A DNA stretch of 41,636 nucleotides from Terriglobia bacterium (lineage in GTDB: Bacteria > Acidobacteriota > Terriglobia > 20CM-2-55-15): assembly GCA_036496425.1 (NCBI GenBank), contig DASXLG010000241.1, positions 1 through 41,636 of the forward strand. Reading direction: 5' to 3'. A program made the translations under genes and the position numbers. The notes under the pieces were generated by a model. It made no database searches. It had not been told where the DNA came from and was given only the letters and a program-made list of their open reading frames with translations. This document shows positions 10,068-28,979 of the stretch, in pieces; the stretch's first letter is position 1; every line of letters starts with the position of its first letter.

Positions 10068-10119
10068 ATCAGCCGCAAAAAGCACGCAGGAATCCTTTTG
10101 TGCCTTTTGTGGCTAATTT
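10068..10119. repeat. Imperfect inverted repeat, CACAAAAGG family
   Basis: The right arm CCTTTTGTGCCTTTTGTGGC is followed by TAA. The left arm is a diverged copy of its reverse complement (TCAGCCGCAAAAAGCACGC). It fills the gap between msrB and the transporter and could act as a transcript stem-loop. It belongs to the same family as the perfect copy at 22664-22714. Confidence 0.75.
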
Positions 10120-10137
10120 CCCCTGTAGAATCTCGCG

Positions 10138-18689: not shown

Positions 18690-18769
18690 CCGCAGATGAC
18701 GCGGATGACGCAGATCGAGCATCACAAGCGTTGATGCCCCATCTGCGTCATCCGCGTCATCTGCGGCTA
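18687..18769. repeat. Perfect 29-bp inverted repeat, GATGACGC family
   Basis: The left arm (18687-18715) and right arm (18741-18769) are exact reverse complements of 29 bases, with a 25-base loop. Each arm begins TAGCCGCA and then has the 9-bp unit GATGACGCR repeated. The hydrolase stop TAG is the first triplet of the left arm. A second copy of this family is at 28142-28224. The stem would be a very stable RNA hairpin between the hydrolase and the downstream operon. Confidence 0.95.
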
Positions 18770-18826: not shown

Positions 18827-21331
18827 ATGCTCCTCATTGCCATTCTTCTGGCCGCGGCTCAATCCGCGGCGGCGCAGACGGCGCCCCGGGCGATGCTCGA
18901 CACGTACTGCATCACCTGCCACAGCGACAAATTGAAGACGGCAGGCTTATCCCTGGAGTCCATCGACGTCAGTAAACCCAGCGCGAATCCGGAAGTCTGG
19001 GAAAAGGTGATCGGGAAATTGCGTGCCGCCTCGATGCCGCCGCCGGGCAGACCCCGCCCGGATGCCGCGGCCTATCACGCGATGGCCGTCTGGCTGGAGA
19101 ACGAAATCGATCGCGACTGGCTGGCCCACCCCAACCCCGGACGCATCGGAGCAGTCCATCGCCTGAATCGCACGGAATACAACAACGCCATCCGGGATCT
19201 CCTTAAGCTGGATGTCGATGTGAAATCGCAACTGCCCGGAGACGAAACCGCGGACGGCAGTTTCGACAACTTCGCGGATTCCCTGACCATCTCGACCGCG
19301 CACATGGAGCGCTATCTCTCCGTCGCGCGGCAGGTGACGCGCCTGGCAACCGGCCTCCCGCCGACCCTTCCAACCGTCGACCGCTTCGAGATCAAGCTGC
19401 ATGTCCTGCAGGATGACCGCCAGGATGAAGATCTTCCTCTCGGTTCGCGTGGCGGAATGGCGATCCATTACAACTTCCCGGTCGACGGCGAATACTCGAT
19501 CAAAGTCCGCCTCCAGCGGCAGTATCAGGACTACATCAAAGGCATGGGTTGGCCACAGCAGCTCGACCTTCGTCTCGACGGCCGTCTTCTGAAGCGCTTC
19601 ACGGTCGGCGGCGAAGCGAAGGGCCGTGCGGCCGCGGCGAGCTATGAAGGCGATGGCGAGCCCGGCTTCGCCGGCGACGACTCGTGGGAAAAGTACATGC
19701 AGATCGGCGGAGACGCCGGTCTTGACGTCCGCATTCCCGTCGGAGCCGGTCCGCATGTGGTGGGAGTTTCGTTTGTCCGGGAAATGTGGGAACCGGAAGG
19801 CCTGACTCAGCCGATCCAGCGCGGGCGCGTCATCACGAACGATGCGGTCTACATGGACTTCGCGAACGTCGGCGCGGTCCAGATCGGCGGTCCGTATAAT
19901 CCCGCCGGCATCGCCAAGGACACACCGAGCCGGCGCGCCATCTTCGTATGCCGGCCGAAATCCCCTTCCGAAGAAACGGCGTGCGCTACAAAAATTCTTT
20001 CCAAAATGGCGCGCCTCGCCTATCGCAGGCCGGTCAAGCCGGCCGATGTGAGCACGCTTCTCGACTTTTTCAACAGCGGCCGCCGCGAAGCGCAAGCCCG
20101 GCAGGGCGCAGCCTCAAGTCGCGACGCGCAAGCCCGGCAGGGCGCAGCCTCAAGTCGCGACGCGCAAGGTAAAGACGGCGGCAGCTTCGATGCCGGCATC
20201 CAGTTCGCTCTCGAACGGCTGCTCGCCGATCCGGACTTCCTGCTGCGGATTTACCGCGATACCCGGCAAAGCGAAAACATCTACAAACTGAGCGATCTCG
20301 AAGTCGCCTCGCGCCTCTCGTTCTTCCTGTGGAGCAGCATCCCGGACGAGCGCCTGCTCGATCTTGCGGAAAAGAATCAGCTGACGAATCCCGACACGCT
20401 CGAAAAAGAAGCCCGCCGGATGCTGGCCGATCCGCGCGCCACCGACTCTCTCGTCAACAACTTCGCATCGCAATGGCTGAACCTGCGGCGGGTCGAGGAG
20501 TCGGTTGTCGATCCGGAGAAGTATCCGAGCTATGACTTGAGCCTGATTCAGGGTTTTCAGCGCGAAACGGAATTGTTCGTCGGCAGCACCATCAAAGACG
20601 ACCGCAGCGTGCTGGAGTTGCTGAACGCCAATTACACCTTCGTCAACGAACGGCTGGCGCGGCATTACGGAATTCCCGGCGTTTATGGAACACGCTTCCG
20701 CCGCGTGACGCTGCCGGATCTGAATCAGCGCGGCGGTCTGCTTGGACAGGGTTCTCTGCTGGTCACGACGTCGTATCCGGATCGAACGTCGCCCGTGTTG
20801 CGTGGAAAGTTTCTGCTCAACAACATCTTCGGTCTGCCGATTCCGCCGCCACCGCCGGGCGTCGACACCAATCTCACGGAAAACAAGGCCGGAGCAGCGC
20901 CGAAATCCATACGTGAAAGGCTGGCACAGCACCGGACGAGTCCCACCTGCAACAACTGCCATTCGGCGATTGACCCGCTGGGATTCGCGCTCGAAAACTA
21001 CGATGTCATCGGGGGCTGGCGAACGATCGATGAAGCCGGCAAGCCCGTCGATGCGACCGGCACCACGCCGGGCGGGAAAAGCATTCAAGGCCTTCCCGGA
21101 TTGCGTGCTTTGCTTCTGGAAGATCCCGAGCAGTTCCCGCGGACGGTGACGGACAAGTTGATGGCATATGCGCTGGGACGGCGCGTGGAATATTACGATC
21201 GTCCTTCAATCCGCAAGATCGTGCACGATGCGGCGGCTCAGAACTACAAGTGGTCGGCAGTCATTATCGGTATTGTGAAGAGTCCCGCATTTCTAATGCG
21301 GGAAAAGGAACCACAGAAGGGACAAATATGA
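18827..21331 (+). CDS. Planctomycete-type cytochrome (DUF1587/1592/1588/1585)
   Basis: This is an 834-residue exported protein. The start ATG at 18827 gives a signal peptide (MLLIAILLAAAQSAAAQ). Longer frames begin inside the upstream repeat. A c-type haem site CITCH lies near residue 30. Then come DUF1587 (HRLNRTEYNNAIRDLL), a beta-rich region (VDGEYSIKVRLQR), DUF1595 (MARLAYRRPVKPADV), DUF1592 (SDLEVASRLSFFLWSS), DUF1588 (GLLGQGSLLVTTSYPDRTSP) and DUF1585 (KLMAYALGRRVEYYDRPSI). A second haem motif CNNCH precedes DUF1585. Such proteins are thought to be periplasmic redox proteins. It overlaps the DUF1552 gene by four bases, its standard partner. An in-frame 36-bp tandem duplication sits in the DUF1595-DUF1592 linker. 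Confidence 0.92.
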   Translation: MLLIAILLAAAQSAAAQTAPRAMLDTYCITCHSDKLKTAGLSLESIDVSKPSANPEVWEKVIGKLRAASMPPPGRPRPDAAAYHAMAVWLENEIDRDWLAHPNPGRIGAVHRLNRTEYNNAIRDLLKLDVDVKSQLPGDETADGSFDNFADSLTISTAHMERYLSVARQVTRLATGLPPTLPTVDRFEIKLHVLQDDRQDEDLPLGSRGGMAIHYNFPVDGEYSIKVRLQRQYQDYIKGMGWPQQLDLRLDGRLLKRFTVGGEAKGRAAAASYEGDGEPGFAGDDSWEKYMQIGGDAGLDVRIPVGAGPHVVGVSFVREMWEPEGLTQPIQRGRVITNDAVYMDFANVGAVQIGGPYNPAGIAKDTPSRRAIFVCRPKSPSEETACATKILSKMARLAYRRPVKPADVSTLLDFFNSGRREAQARQGAASSRDAQARQGAASSRDAQGKDGGSFDAGIQFALERLLADPDFLLRIYRDTRQSENIYKLSDLEVASRLSFFLWSSIPDERLLDLAEKNQLTNPDTLEKEARRMLADPRATDSLVNNFASQWLNLRRVEESVVDPEKYPSYDLSLIQGFQRETELFVGSTIKDDRSVLELLNANYTFVNERLARHYGIPGVYGTRFRRVTLPDLNQRGGLLGQGSLLVTTSYPDRTSPVLRGKFLLNNIFGLPIPPPPPGVDTNLTENKAGAAPKSIRERLAQHRTSPTCNNCHSAIDPLGFALENYDVIGGWRTIDEAGKPVDATGTTPGGKSIQGLPGLRALLLEDPEQFPRTVTDKLMAYALGRRVEYYDRPSIRKIVHDAAAQNYKWSAVIIGIVKSPAFLMREKEPQKGQI
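20090..20168 (+). repeat. Perfect 36-bp tandem duplication inside the DUF1592-group gene
   Basis: Two identical 36-bp units (20090-20125 and 20126-20161) plus seven bases of a third. They encode AQARQGAASSRD twice in a linker between DUF1595 and DUF1592. Because the unit is a multiple of three, copy-number change keeps the frame. Confidence 0.95.
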
Positions 21332-22653
21332 ACTTCCTTGAATCGAAGTCGTTGTCGCGCCGTACTGTTCTGCGCGGAATGGGCGCCGCGGTTGCACTGC
21401 CCTTCCTGGACGCGATGATTCCCGCAGCAAAGGCTGCGTCGAAGCCGGCGAACCGTTTCCTGACCTTCTATGTGCCGAACGGCATGGCGATGGAATACTG
21501 GTCGCCGAAAGGCGAAGGCAGCACGTTTGAACTCTCGCCGATTCTCGAACCGCTCGCGCCATTCAAGGATCAGATGATCGTGTTGTCCGGAGTGCATGCG
21601 AGCTGGAATTACATTCACGCGGGGGCTTCCGGCTCGTTCCTGACCGGCACGCCGCGCGGCGGAAAGAACGAGATCGAGATCATTGCCGATGTCTCCATCG
21701 ACCAGCTCCTCGCGCGGCATTACAGCAGCGAAACGCAGGTCGGATCGCTGGAACTATCGTTGGACACGCCCGCCAATGCCGGCGCCTGCACAGGCAATCT
21801 GAGCTGCGCGTACACGCACACGATTTCCTGGCGGAATCAGACGCAGCCCCTGCCGATGGAATACAACCCCCGCGCGGTTTTCGAGCGGCTGTTCGGCGAC
21901 AGCGGCAAAACCGATTGGCCCGCGCGTGAAGCGCGTATGATGCAGCACAAAAGCATCCTGGATTCGGTGATGACCAAACTCTCCAGCCTGAAGCAGGAAC
22001 TGGGTCCGCAGGACCAGGCGAAGGTCAGCGAATACACCGACTCGATCCGCGATGTCGAACGCCGCATTCAACGGGCTGAGGAACAACGTGATATTCCATT
22101 GCCCGCTGTCGAGCAGCCCCAAGGTGTGCCGGCGGTGTTCGAAGATCACCTGGCGGTGATGTTGGACCTTCAGCTTCTCGCGTTCCAATCGGATCTGACG
22201 CGCGTGATTTCGTTCATGATCGGAAAGGAACAGAGCGCGAGACCGTATCCTCAGATCGGCGTACCGGAAGCACACCATCCGCTGTCGCACCACGATAATG
22301 TTCCGGAGATCGTCGCGCAGATGTCGAAGATCAACCGCTACCACGCCGAATTGTTTTCGAAGTACCTCGCGAAACTGCGCGCCACACCCGACGGTGATGG
22401 GACCCTGCTCGATCACATGATGATCCTGTACGGCTCGGGCATTTCCAACAGCACGCGCCACGCGCCGGACAATCTGCCGCTCCTTCTGATCGGCGGCGGA
22501 GCCGGCCGGCTGAAAGGCGGCCGGCACATCGTATATAAGGAGAAACCGTCGATGGCCAACCTCCTGGTCACCATCATGGACAAGATGGATGTCCCCGTCG
22601 ATAAAGTCGGCGGCAGCGACGGCAAACTCCAACTCGACGGCGTCGGCATATGA
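21328..22653 (+). CDS. DUF1552 family Tat-exported protein
   Basis: A 441-residue protein beginning MNFLESKSLSRRTVLRGMGA, a twin-arginine signal (SRRTVLRG) followed by a hydrophobic stretch ending around AAKA. The mature part carries DUF1552 features: FLTFYVPNGMAMEYW, LSGVHASWNY, RGGKNE...SIDQLLARHY, SLELSLDTPANAGAC, and at the end GSGISNSTRHAPDNLPLLL. The fold is probably related to sulfatase/alkaline-phosphatase-like DUF1501 proteins. No catalytic role is established that I know of. The gene overlaps the upstream DUF1592-group gene (ATGA at 21328) and the downstream ankyrin gene (ATGA at 22650). Pairing with the cytochrome is a recurring arrangement in Planctomycetes and Acidobacteriota. 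Confidence 0.92.
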   Translation: MNFLESKSLSRRTVLRGMGAAVALPFLDAMIPAAKAASKPANRFLTFYVPNGMAMEYWSPKGEGSTFELSPILEPLAPFKDQMIVLSGVHASWNYIHAGASGSFLTGTPRGGKNEIEIIADVSIDQLLARHYSSETQVGSLELSLDTPANAGACTGNLSCAYTHTISWRNQTQPLPMEYNPRAVFERLFGDSGKTDWPAREARMMQHKSILDSVMTKLSSLKQELGPQDQAKVSEYTDSIRDVERRIQRAEEQRDIPLPAVEQPQGVPAVFEDHLAVMLDLQLLAFQSDLTRVISFMIGKEQSARPYPQIGVPEAHHPLSHHDNVPEIVAQMSKINRYHAELFSKYLAKLRATPDGDGTLLDHMMILYGSGISNSTRHAPDNLPLLLIGGGAGRLKGGRHIVYKEKPSMANLLVTIMDKMDVPVDKVGGSDGKLQLDGVGI

Positions 22654-24062
22654 GAGAAAGAAGATTAGCCACAAAAGGCACAAAAGGGCTCCTGATGTGC
22701 CTTTTGTGGCTAATTCCCTCTTTCGCTGCGGACCTTCGTCCACCCTTGGTAGATGCCGCAAAAAAAGGCGATCGCGAGGCCATCCGCTCTCTCCTGAAAC
22801 AACCCGGAGCCAATGCCAACATCACCGAAGCCGACGGCACAACCGCCCTGCACTGGGCGGCCTACCACGACGATCTCGAAACGGCCGATCTGCTGATTCG
22901 TGCGGGAGCGAAGGCCAATCTCGCCAACGATCTTGGCGCGACGCCGCTTTGGGCAGCCTGTGAAAACGGGAGCGAAGCGATGGTCAAGCGCCTGCTGGCA
23001 GCCGGCGCGAATCCCAATGCGAAGCTGCTCTCGGGCGAAACCCTGTTGATGATTGCTTCCCGGACCGGCAATCCCGCCGTCGTCGAGCAGCTTGCCGCGA
23101 AAGGCGCTGAGGTCAATGCGCGGGCGGCGCGCAACCAGACGGCGCTGATGTGGGCGGTCGCGCAAAAGCATCCGGAAGTGACCAGGGTGCTGCTGGCGCA
23201 TCATGCGGACGTCCACGCGAAATCGGACGCCTGGGATTACGTCATGGCGGTCTCGCCGCACGGTTATCTCGAATACAACAAGGCGATTCCGCATGGCAAC
23301 GACACGCCGCTGCTCTTTGCGGCGCGCGCCGGCGATCTCGAATCCGCGAAAATGCTGGTCGCGGCAGGCGCCGATGTGAATGAAGCCGATGCCTGGGGCA
23401 TCAGTACCACAGTTCTCGCTGCTCACGCCGGGTTCCCCGATGTGGTTGCGTTTCTGCTCGACAAGGGCGCCGACCCGAACGCCGCCAAGGCCGGCTTCAC
23501 GGCCCTGGACGAAGCCATCATGCATCGTGACGAGCAAATGGTCACCGCGCTGCTCGATCACGGCGCGGACGCCAATGCGCCGTTGCGCACGTGGACGCCC
23601 ACACGGCGAACCTCCAAGGATTACAATTACGATCCCGAGCTGGTCGGAGCGGCGCCGTTCTGGCTGGCGGCTCGTTTTACTGAGCCGAATGTCCTGCGCC
23701 TGCTGTTGAAGCATGGCGCCGATCCGCATTTCGTCCATCACGGCGATAAAGTCGTTGAAGGCCGTGGCGGCAATCCATTCGAACACCGCAAAGATGTCAC
23801 TACCCCGCTGATGGCGGCGATGGGGATCGGCGGCGGCGCCGCATGGATCGAGATCGAGCGCGCTCAACGCGAAGCTCTCGCCTTGGAAACTGCCAAACTT
23901 CTGGTAGATTCCGGTGTCGATATCAATGCGGCCAATACCGACGGCAGAACGGCACTTGACGGCGCCCGCACACTGCGGTATCAAAGCGTGATTCAGTATT
24001 TGACGGATAAGGGCGCCAAGGCCGGCACTGGAGCAGGCCGCGGGGCAAGGCAAACCAGATGA
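22650..24062 (+). CDS. Secreted ankyrin-repeat protein
   Basis: A 470-residue protein with about nine ankyrin units (DGTTALHWAAYHDDLETADLL, LGATPLWAACENGSEAMV, NQTALMWAVAQKHPEV and so on), ending in a GAGRGARQTR tail. The ATG overlaps the DUF1552 stop (ATGA), which makes 22650 the natural start. Residues 1-27 then form a signal peptide: basic MRERRLATKGTKG, hydrophobic LLMCLLWLIP and an SFAA cleavage region. These codons coincide with an intergenic-type inverted repeat (22664-22714), so the repeat supplies the signal peptide. A later ATG at 22695 would remove the basic region. The stop overlaps the DUF4159 start. It probably mediates protein binding in the periplasm. Confidence 0.9.
   Translation: MRERRLATKGTKGLLMCLLWLIPSFAADLRPPLVDAAKKGDREAIRSLLKQPGANANITEADGTTALHWAAYHDDLETADLLIRAGAKANLANDLGATPLWAACENGSEAMVKRLLAAGANPNAKLLSGETLLMIASRTGNPAVVEQLAAKGAEVNARAARNQTALMWAVAQKHPEVTRVLLAHHADVHAKSDAWDYVMAVSPHGYLEYNKAIPHGNDTPLLFAARAGDLESAKMLVAAGADVNEADAWGISTTVLAAHAGFPDVVAFLLDKGADPNAAKAGFTALDEAIMHRDEQMVTALLDHGADANAPLRTWTPTRRTSKDYNYDPELVGAAPFWLAARFTEPNVLRLLLKHGADPHFVHHGDKVVEGRGGNPFEHRKDVTTPLMAAMGIGGGAAWIEIERAQREALALETAKLLVDSGVDINAANTDGRTALDGARTLRYQSVIQYLTDKGAKAGTGAGRGARQTR
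22664..22714. repeat. 18-bp perfect inverted repeat, CACAAAAGG family, inside a gene
   Basis: Arms 22664-22681 and 22697-22714 are exact reverse complements (ATTAGCCACAAAAGGCAC and its complement). The left arm contains the 9-bp unit CACAAAAGG twice in tandem. It falls within codons 5-22 of the ankyrin gene. Related copies are at 10068-10119 and 28939-28952. Confidence 0.93.
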
Positions 24063-28232: not shown

Positions 28233-28979
28233 TTACTTCTTCGGGACGAGCTTAATCTCGAAGAGCTTCGGCCAGAGCTTCCCCGTGACGAAGAGCCGGT
28301 CTGCAGCGGCGTCATAAGCGATGCCGTTGAGCACGGCATCCTGGTTGGTTCGATCCGCTTTAGGAAGGATGCCCGAAAGATCGATCCATCCGAGAACCCT
28401 GCCGTCGGCAGGCGAAATCCGTGCAATCCGGTCGGTCTGCCAGACATTGGCGAAGATCTCACCCTTCACGAATTCGAGCTCGTTCAGTTCCGTTACCGGC
28501 GTGTTTCCGTCCTTTACCGTGATGCGCCGGATCTCTTTCAGTGTGGCCGGATCCCAGACGCGAATCTGGGACGTGCCGTCACTCATAAAGATCTGTTTTC
28601 CGTCGTTCGTGAGGCCCCAACCTTCGCCGGAATACTGAAAGCTTCGCAGCACAGTCAGCTTGGCCTTGTCGTAGACGAAGCCGGTGTTCGACTGCCAGGT
28701 GAGTTCGATGAGTTGATTCCCGACCAGCGTGATGCCCTCGCCAAAAAACGGCTGCGGCACGTCGAAAATCTGGAGGACACGGCCGGTGGTCAGATCGACC
28801 TTACGAACCGAGGAATGGCCGGGAATACCGGTGCCTTCGTACAGGAATCCGTCACGATATTCGAGGCCTTGGGTGAAAGCGTTTTTGTCGTGAGGATAGG
28901 TGTTGATCACGCGGTACGAGTATTGCGGCGCGGGAACCAGCCACAAAAGGCAGGAAAACAGCAGTTGTGAAATCGGCAT
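28233..28979 (-). CDS. Glutaminyl-peptide cyclotransferase
   Basis: A 248-residue protein of the glutamine cyclotransferase (plant/bacterial QC) family, a five-bladed propeller that converts N-terminal Gln of peptides to pyroglutamate. Family marks: YPHDKNAFTQGLEYRDGFLYE, GTGIPGHSSVRKVDL, FGEGITLVGNQLIELTWQ, GEGWGLTNDGKQIFMSDGT, NELEFVKGEIFANVWQTD, LNGIAYDAAADRLFVTGK. The start ATG 28979 is one base after the stop of the E1 gene, so the two are co-transcribed. The signal peptide MPISQLLFSCLLWLVPAP contains a stretch matching the CACAAAAGG-type repeat (28939-28952). Confidence 0.93.
   Translation of the reverse strand: MPISQLLFSCLLWLVPAPQYSYRVINTYPHDKNAFTQGLEYRDGFLYEGTGIPGHSSVRKVDLTTGRVLQIFDVPQPFFGEGITLVGNQLIELTWQSNTGFVYDKAKLTVLRSFQYSGEGWGLTNDGKQIFMSDGTSQIRVWDPATLKEIRRITVKDGNTPVTELNELEFVKGEIFANVWQTDRIARISPADGRVLGWIDLSGILPKADRTNQDAVLNGIAYDAAADRLFVTGKLWPKLFEIKLVPKK
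28939..28952 (-). repeat. Fragment of the CACAAAAGG repeat in a signal peptide
   Basis: Minus-strand TGCCTTTTGTGGCT, followed by GGTTCCC, matches the right arm of the repeat copies at 10068 and 22664 (TGCCTTTTGTGGCTAATTCCC in the latter). It encodes CLLWLVP in the cyclotransferase signal peptide, against CLLWLIP in the ankyrin protein. Chance is possible for 14 bases. Confidence 0.5.

Follow-up and report, generated by a model that had tools for sequence, protein, structure and literature searches.

A REP-like palindromic repeat as the probable source of signal peptides in a Terriglobia genome

Rickettsia palindromic elements (RPEs) occupy many places in proteins, mostly as tolerated surface insertions. 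In Yersinia, a palindromic sequence, RU-2, is reported to form part of the signal peptide of YPO1552 (Delihas 2007, PMC2759123; PMC2229807). Orthologues in Enterobacterales can differ by the gain or loss of an entire N-terminal signal peptide, and a survey that sought transposable elements as the cause with ISEScan found none (PMC5952966). Here we describe an inverted repeat at the 5′ end of an ankyrin-repeat protein gene in a contig of a Terriglobia bacterium (DASXLG010000241.1, positions 1 to 41,636, the whole stretch analysed, hereafter called “the window”). We consider it likely that this inverted repeat is a copy of a repeat resembling the repetitive extragenic palindromic (REP) elements, and that it now encodes the Sec signal peptide of the ankyrin protein in place of the ancestral one. 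The source genome comprises 6.16 Mb in 407 contigs, and its gene content (e.g., Soli_TIGR03435) points to a host of the soil-acidobacterium type.

The repeat in the ankyrin gene

The ATG of the ankyrin gene overlaps the TGA stop codon of the preceding DUF1552 gene as ATGA (22650-22653), and the inverted repeat at 22664-22714 spans codons 5-22. An earlier reading of the window made without database searches (the “sequence-only reading”) had recognised the overlap, the repeat and the codons, but had taken the arms to be 18 bp long. They are perfect 19-bp arms, ATTAGCCACAAAAGGCACA (22664-22682) and TGTGCCTTTTGTGGCTAAT (22696-22714), separated by a 13-nt loop. The RNA hairpin formed by 22650-22730 has a folding energy of −43.9 kcal/mol, with a z of −8.65 relative to shuffled sequences. 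The features of the locus are as follows.

21328-22653, plus strand: DUF1552 (HXXSHH) protein gene, with its TGA overlapping the ankyrin ATG
22650-24062, plus strand: ankyrin-repeat protein; its mature part would begin near codon 27, and Pfam Ank_2 begins at residue 33
22650-22727, plus strand: predicted signal peptide MRERRLATKGTKGLLMCLLWLIPSFA↓A, from sequence, hydrophobicity and orthologue comparison
22664-22714: probable captured palindromic repeat, 19-bp arms 22664-22682 and 22696-22714, loop of 13 nt
22695-22697, plus strand: alternative ATG within the repeat, preceded by AAAGGG

In the predicted signal peptide, the left arm provides the basic n-region and the right arm the hydrophobic core, consistent with the earlier assignment of CLLWLIP to the right arm, while the predicted cleavage site SFA↓A (followed by D) is supplied by the sequence directly 3′ of the repeat. 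Read from the sequence, this N-terminus possesses the features of a Sec signal peptide: the basic MRERRLATKGTKG, the core LLMCLLWLIP and SFA↓A, with a 10-residue hydrophobicity of 2.66. We infer that translation starts at ATG 22650. The start could instead be the ATG at 22695 inside the repeat, in which case the product would begin with MCLLWLIPSFA, keeping the hydrophobic core and losing the basic n-region. Effector-type ankyrin names from NCBIfam were rejected for this protein, as their scores were far below the cut-off and reflect generic ankyrin repeats only.

The ankyrin orthologues at the same DUF1552 junction in the related genomes G005 (MTRIIPSLMCLSLCVLVFTQTSHA) and G004 (VQMIAISIAIFVLAAG) begin with signal peptides that lack the repeat; a possible repeat trace in these two peptides was not significant and was dismissed. 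The G002 orthologue (...ATCLLLLLSLSA) carries a remnant of the right arm (15 of 17 bases, equalled in 0 of 2000 codon shuffles) beside a different palindrome, and more distant relatives have unrelated signal peptides. The sequence-only reading would have been refuted by orthologues with the same N-terminus but no repeat. Instead, the repeat-free orthologues differ from the ankyrin protein in N-terminal sequence, and each still begins, at the corresponding position, with a stretch resembling a signal peptide. The repeat thus lies in frame within a conserved gene and is missing from its orthologues, as in the coding-captured repeats of the RPE and RU type.

Does translation instead begin downstream of the repeat? 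If the gene started at the TTG at 22746, the repeat would be untranslated leader DNA and the protein would have lost its signal peptide. The codon-usage caller does place the start at 22746, because the repeat uses rare codons, and no clear Shine-Dalgarno sequence precedes 22650. However, our scan found no recognisable ribosome-binding site before TTG 22746, and the orthologues read have their signal-peptide-like N-termini at the same position. Moreover, the basic and hydrophobic stretches and SFA↓A, in frame immediately ahead of the conserved RPPL(V/L)DAA, would have to be a coincidence, and ten other genes with a repeat-derived core, described below, have no reasonable alternative start. We therefore regard a downstream start as unlikely.

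The repeat family and its placement

The right-arm 20-mer TGCCTTTTGTGGCTAATTCC, allowing up to 3 mismatches, matches the window four times, versus 0.00 expected: at 22698-22717 (0 mismatches), 22661-22680 on the minus strand (3), 10101-10120 (1), and 28933-28952 on the minus strand (2). The last two lie in an intergenic copy and in a second gene for a predicted exported protein, both of which the sequence-only reading had pointed out.

10069-10120: ordinary intergenic repeat copy between msrB and a transporter gene
28233-28979, minus strand: glutamine cyclotransferase (PF05096)
28933-28952, minus strand: right-arm sequence with 2 mismatches, forming the hydrophobic core of the cyclotransferase signal peptide MPISQLLFSCLLWLVPA

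In the whole genome, the same pattern yields at least 111 arm matches, while the reversed control yields 0; 17 full palindromes satisfy a strict two-arm pattern. The consensus of 102 aligned arms, GGAGATTAGCCACAAAAGGCACA, consists of a purine-rich lead followed by ATTAGCCACAAAAGGCACA. We analysed about 100 regions around the copies, with genes called by a simple home-made codon-usage method, and found the copies to be almost all intergenic and often directly after a stop codon. The element is a short palindrome with many, mostly extragenic, copies, as in the REP-like class. The tetranucleotides GTAG and CGTC are both absent from the 102-arm consensus, and no REP-associated tyrosine transposase (RAYT) gene flanked by repeat copies was found. 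The single Y1_Tnp match has flanks that carry a different inverted repeat, GGGGGCGCACACCTGAATTC, and a RAYT was accordingly rejected as the mobiliser; this Y1 transposase gene (L147, G000:C15:13160-13498), bounded by GGGGGCGCACACCTGAATTC, is apparently an element of its own.

A subfamily of the congeners, GCCACAAAAAGGCACAAAA, has 162 matches in G004, 149 in G005 and 149 in G003, and at most 4 in each of G000, G001 and G002, and the window version is found in none of the other genera of the same taxonomic family. These congener-specific subfamilies and the absence from other genera indicate a lineage-specific, REP-like repeat. A literal search of papers for the repeat unit gave no match, and Rfam gave only chance matches far below threshold, to hairpin microRNA families. 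A collection-wide scan with a 23-base piece found only three loci, all in one Latescibacteria metagenome-assembled genome, and none at a gene start reading as a signal peptide. These loci (L317-L319, OY282377.1) are exact 23-base arm matches in another phylum, within an intergenic repeat that continues differently. At the starts of contigs C115, C119 and C128 (L060, L061 and L063), repeat copies lie less than about 100 bases from the contig ends, as if the repeats had broken the assembly. In one subfamily (TGGCTATTCCC), the arms are about 80-250 bp apart.

Where do inverted repeats stand relative to coding DNA? In 646 kb of the source genome, we counted 103 perfect inverted repeats with arms of at least 13 bp: 94 outside coding sequence, 8 at gene N-termini and 1 in a gene interior. 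The regions were chosen for holding the repeat, and the total is therefore enriched in this family, while the split between N-termini and interiors is unselected. Among genes of four species, an inverted repeat scoring 12 or more occurs in 6 of 665 N-terminal windows, five of them from the repeat family, and in 0 of 1329 interior windows. In regions of G004, G005 and G002, which were not chosen for captures, two N-terminal family copies were found, MTKRNSATKRHKIHKIVLCVFCAFLWLIPLSEAQ in G004 (L197) and MTKRTATKRHKIHKSILGLLCLFVAITLLGQA in G005 (L219), together with the different palindrome in the G002 ankyrin gene. Gene interiors of G002 held two true inverted repeats, and the remaining internal matches were runs of N.

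Predicted signal peptides with repeat-derived cores

The sequence-only reading had proposed counting how many copies stand at the start of genes whose products are exported. Made on the roughly 100 regions of the source genome, this count revealed a recurrent and frame-specific pattern, with a repeat-derived signal-peptide core in 15 genes. Ten captures are “clear”, with no reasonable start after the repeat, and five are “probable”, with a weaker alternative start behind it.

Window cyclotransferase: clear
L045 and L071, PSD/PSCyt (PSCyt/DUF1588): clear
L049, cytochrome c: clear
L051, NfeD1b: clear
L069 (plus strand), periplasmic binding protein, lipoprotein type: clear
L074, Vgb/beta-lactamase fold: clear
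L091, outer-membrane beta-barrel: clear
L095, ankyrin: clear
L109, LolA-like: clear
Window ankyrin, L044 and L060: probable
L048, DUF885: probable
L062, aldose epimerase with a lipobox: probable

The captured genes belong to exported kinds of protein, and their frame is nearly always LCLLWLI/LCLLCFL. The exception is L069, whose palindrome falls in the n-region and the first part of the core and is read in a different frame. Automatic “obligate” calls at L061, L063, L084 (both), L107, L069 (minus strand) and L313 were rejected, since on reading they were not signal peptides. When the T-rich arm runs into a gene, two frames are open, PFVPFVANF and LLCLLWLI. With the former, the gene's own start follows the repeat, as in the genes for EF-Ts, acetyl-CoA synthetase (Acs), HrpB, an M24 peptidase, MFS and ABC-2, which are mostly cytosolic or inner-membrane proteins. 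The comparison of 15 exported fused with 8 cytosolic unfused genes gives a Fisher value of 2e-6, which serves as a guide rather than a test, as the genes were sorted by the author and not blind.

The congeners reveal different repeats in the same genes. In the source genome, the cyclotransferase has the right arm only, and the palindrome is gone (fold z −0.47). In G004, a complete copy of that genome's own subfamily (MGTSHKKAQQSQKMFLCLLCLFVAGFS) lies in the signal peptide of the orthologue; in G005, a CCACAGA-type palindrome takes this place, its loop containing the ATG; and in G001, a left-arm-like sequence lies 5′ of the ATG. Similarly, NfeD1b bears the repeat in the source genome, ordinary signal peptides in G004 and G003, and, at the corresponding place in G005, a member of another REP/palindrome family that has 5 exact copies in that genome and 0 in the other three genomes searched. 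In addition, a G004 cytochrome c homologue has its ATG start inside its own repeat copy (MATKGHRTHKDVSILFPSLMFLCFFVAVPFIDALSQA). These differences indicate that export signals are rebuilt from different repeats, and the rebuilding may proceed by independent insertion or by conversion of an old copy.

Two further observations concern repeat variants. One in G004 (L332, AATGGCCACAAAAGG) has an ATG at its edge, such that one copy can bring the start codon, basic part and hydrophobic core together; the AATGGCCAC form is the common one in G061. Two signal peptides, at L060 (1-130) and L091 (4000-4180), seem to derive from two repeat families, with the basic part RHPRHLRLK from GATGACGCG and the hydrophobic core from CACAAAAGG. 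Elsewhere in the window, at 18691-18766, a second repeat family (CGCAGATGACGCGGATGACGCAGATG and its inverse, 49 matches in the fetched source-genome loci) brackets the start of a DUF1588-type cytochrome gene. If TTG 18731 or the next ATG is used, the N-terminus reads MPHLRHPRHLRL, with a basic n-region.

The repeat between the DUF1552 and ankyrin genes might also serve as an operon hairpin (an mRNA stabiliser, attenuator or partial terminator), with its coding as a tolerated side effect. The very stable fold favours this role, as does the position of most copies between genes and often right after a stop codon, which is usual for REP-like repeats. However, such a role leaves unexplained why fused copies are almost only in the hydrophobic frame and only in exported-type proteins, and why the fused arm is kept in the cyclotransferase after the loss of the palindrome. 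As the sole explanation, it is slightly less probable than the downstream start, and a hairpin role can coexist with capture. A chance likeness of Leu-rich signal peptides to the T-rich arm might be argued for the single, twice-mismatched arm of the cyclotransferase, but is highly improbable given the window expectation and the empty reversed control, and is excluded for the full palindromes, whose two arms both lie in the signal peptides of the window ankyrin protein, L049, L051, L069 and L074.

Proposed explanation and comparison with known systems

Why does this palindrome read as a signal peptide? Two frames are open in the A-rich arm, and both encode basic stretches (EISHKRHKR and KLATKGTKG); the complementary T-rich arm is hydrophobic, most strongly as LLCLLWLI, with a mean hydrophobicity of 3.14. 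Since the element is a palindrome, the basic-then-hydrophobic order arises on either strand, and the frame is all that has to match. Any palindrome with one A-rich arm would thereby be a ready-made Sec signal. We propose that the ankyrin gene received a copy of the high-copy REP-like repeat at its 5′ end, where this copy would now encode the Sec signal peptide and would have replaced the ancestral one. Signal peptides accept almost any basic-then-hydrophobic sequence, and this tolerance would allow repeat insertions to survive there and hardly elsewhere in coding DNA. The repeat-derived peptide is predicted to work in export.

Several points weigh against this capture. The start at ATG 22650 relies on the overlap with the upstream stop codon, as no clear Shine-Dalgarno sequence lies 5′ of it, and a very stable hairpin follows just after it. 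Across the loci, gene starts rest on the home-made caller and the author's own reading. Capture is also uneven: 0 of 53 arms are captured in G003, and none in 30 loci of G061, from an unrelated family of the class, where TGTGCCTTTTGTGGCCATT has 132 matches; in the G061 variant, the matching frame is broken by a proline. Finally, the sequence-only reading had suggested that repeat insertion can create or replace export signals. Replacement is well supported. No case of creation, the onset of export in a once cytosolic protein, came to light, because the orthologues and families hit are already exported in relatives.

Repeat capture may thus be a simple way for bacteria to gain or swap export signals. 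The complementary-arm logic predicts that, whichever way round an A-rich palindrome lies, one of its three frames can serve as an export signal. We tentatively extend this to a broader view, with somewhat more doubt than conviction: A-rich palindromes may act as mobile, orientation-independent signal peptides feeding the 5′ ends of exported genes, with congeners rebuilding their signals from different families, and a single step could turn a cytosolic protein into an exported one. Short palindromes would be a concrete source for signal-peptide exchange that lies outside the design of standard transposon finders; to our knowledge, they are the kind of element that ISEScan was not made to find. 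The findings also carry a warning, as such signals may go unseen, or spurious ones arise, when gene starts are annotated and repeats masked.

How does the element compare with described systems? Unlike RPEs, the insertions here are almost confined to the signal-peptide region. The likeness to RPEs (Ogata et al., cited in PMC2229807) lies in palindromic repeats standing in frame inside protein genes. RU-2 in YPO1552 resembles the present case in that the counterparts of YPO1552 in other genera carry signal sequences unrelated to its own (PMC2759123; PMC2229807). RU-2, however, is 168 bp long, with YPO1552 as its main case and YPO2495 as a weaker one, while the present element is about 50 bp long and enters about 15 genes in one genome. 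The frame here is, moreover, nearly always the same, for the clear reason that an A-rich palindrome reads basic and then hydrophobic on both strands. The GTAG/CGTC-tagged REP elements (PMC3733652) are likewise short, high-copy and mostly extragenic palindromes with species-specific subfamilies, but the present consensus has neither tag, and the sole Y1 transposase found is not flanked by the repeat. Unlike in the Enterobacterales survey (PMC5952966), short palindromes are the probable source of signal peptides here. The novelty lies in how many cases one genome holds, in the rule that governs the frame, in sister species drawing on different repeat families at one and the same gene, and in the rationale offered by the A-rich palindrome.
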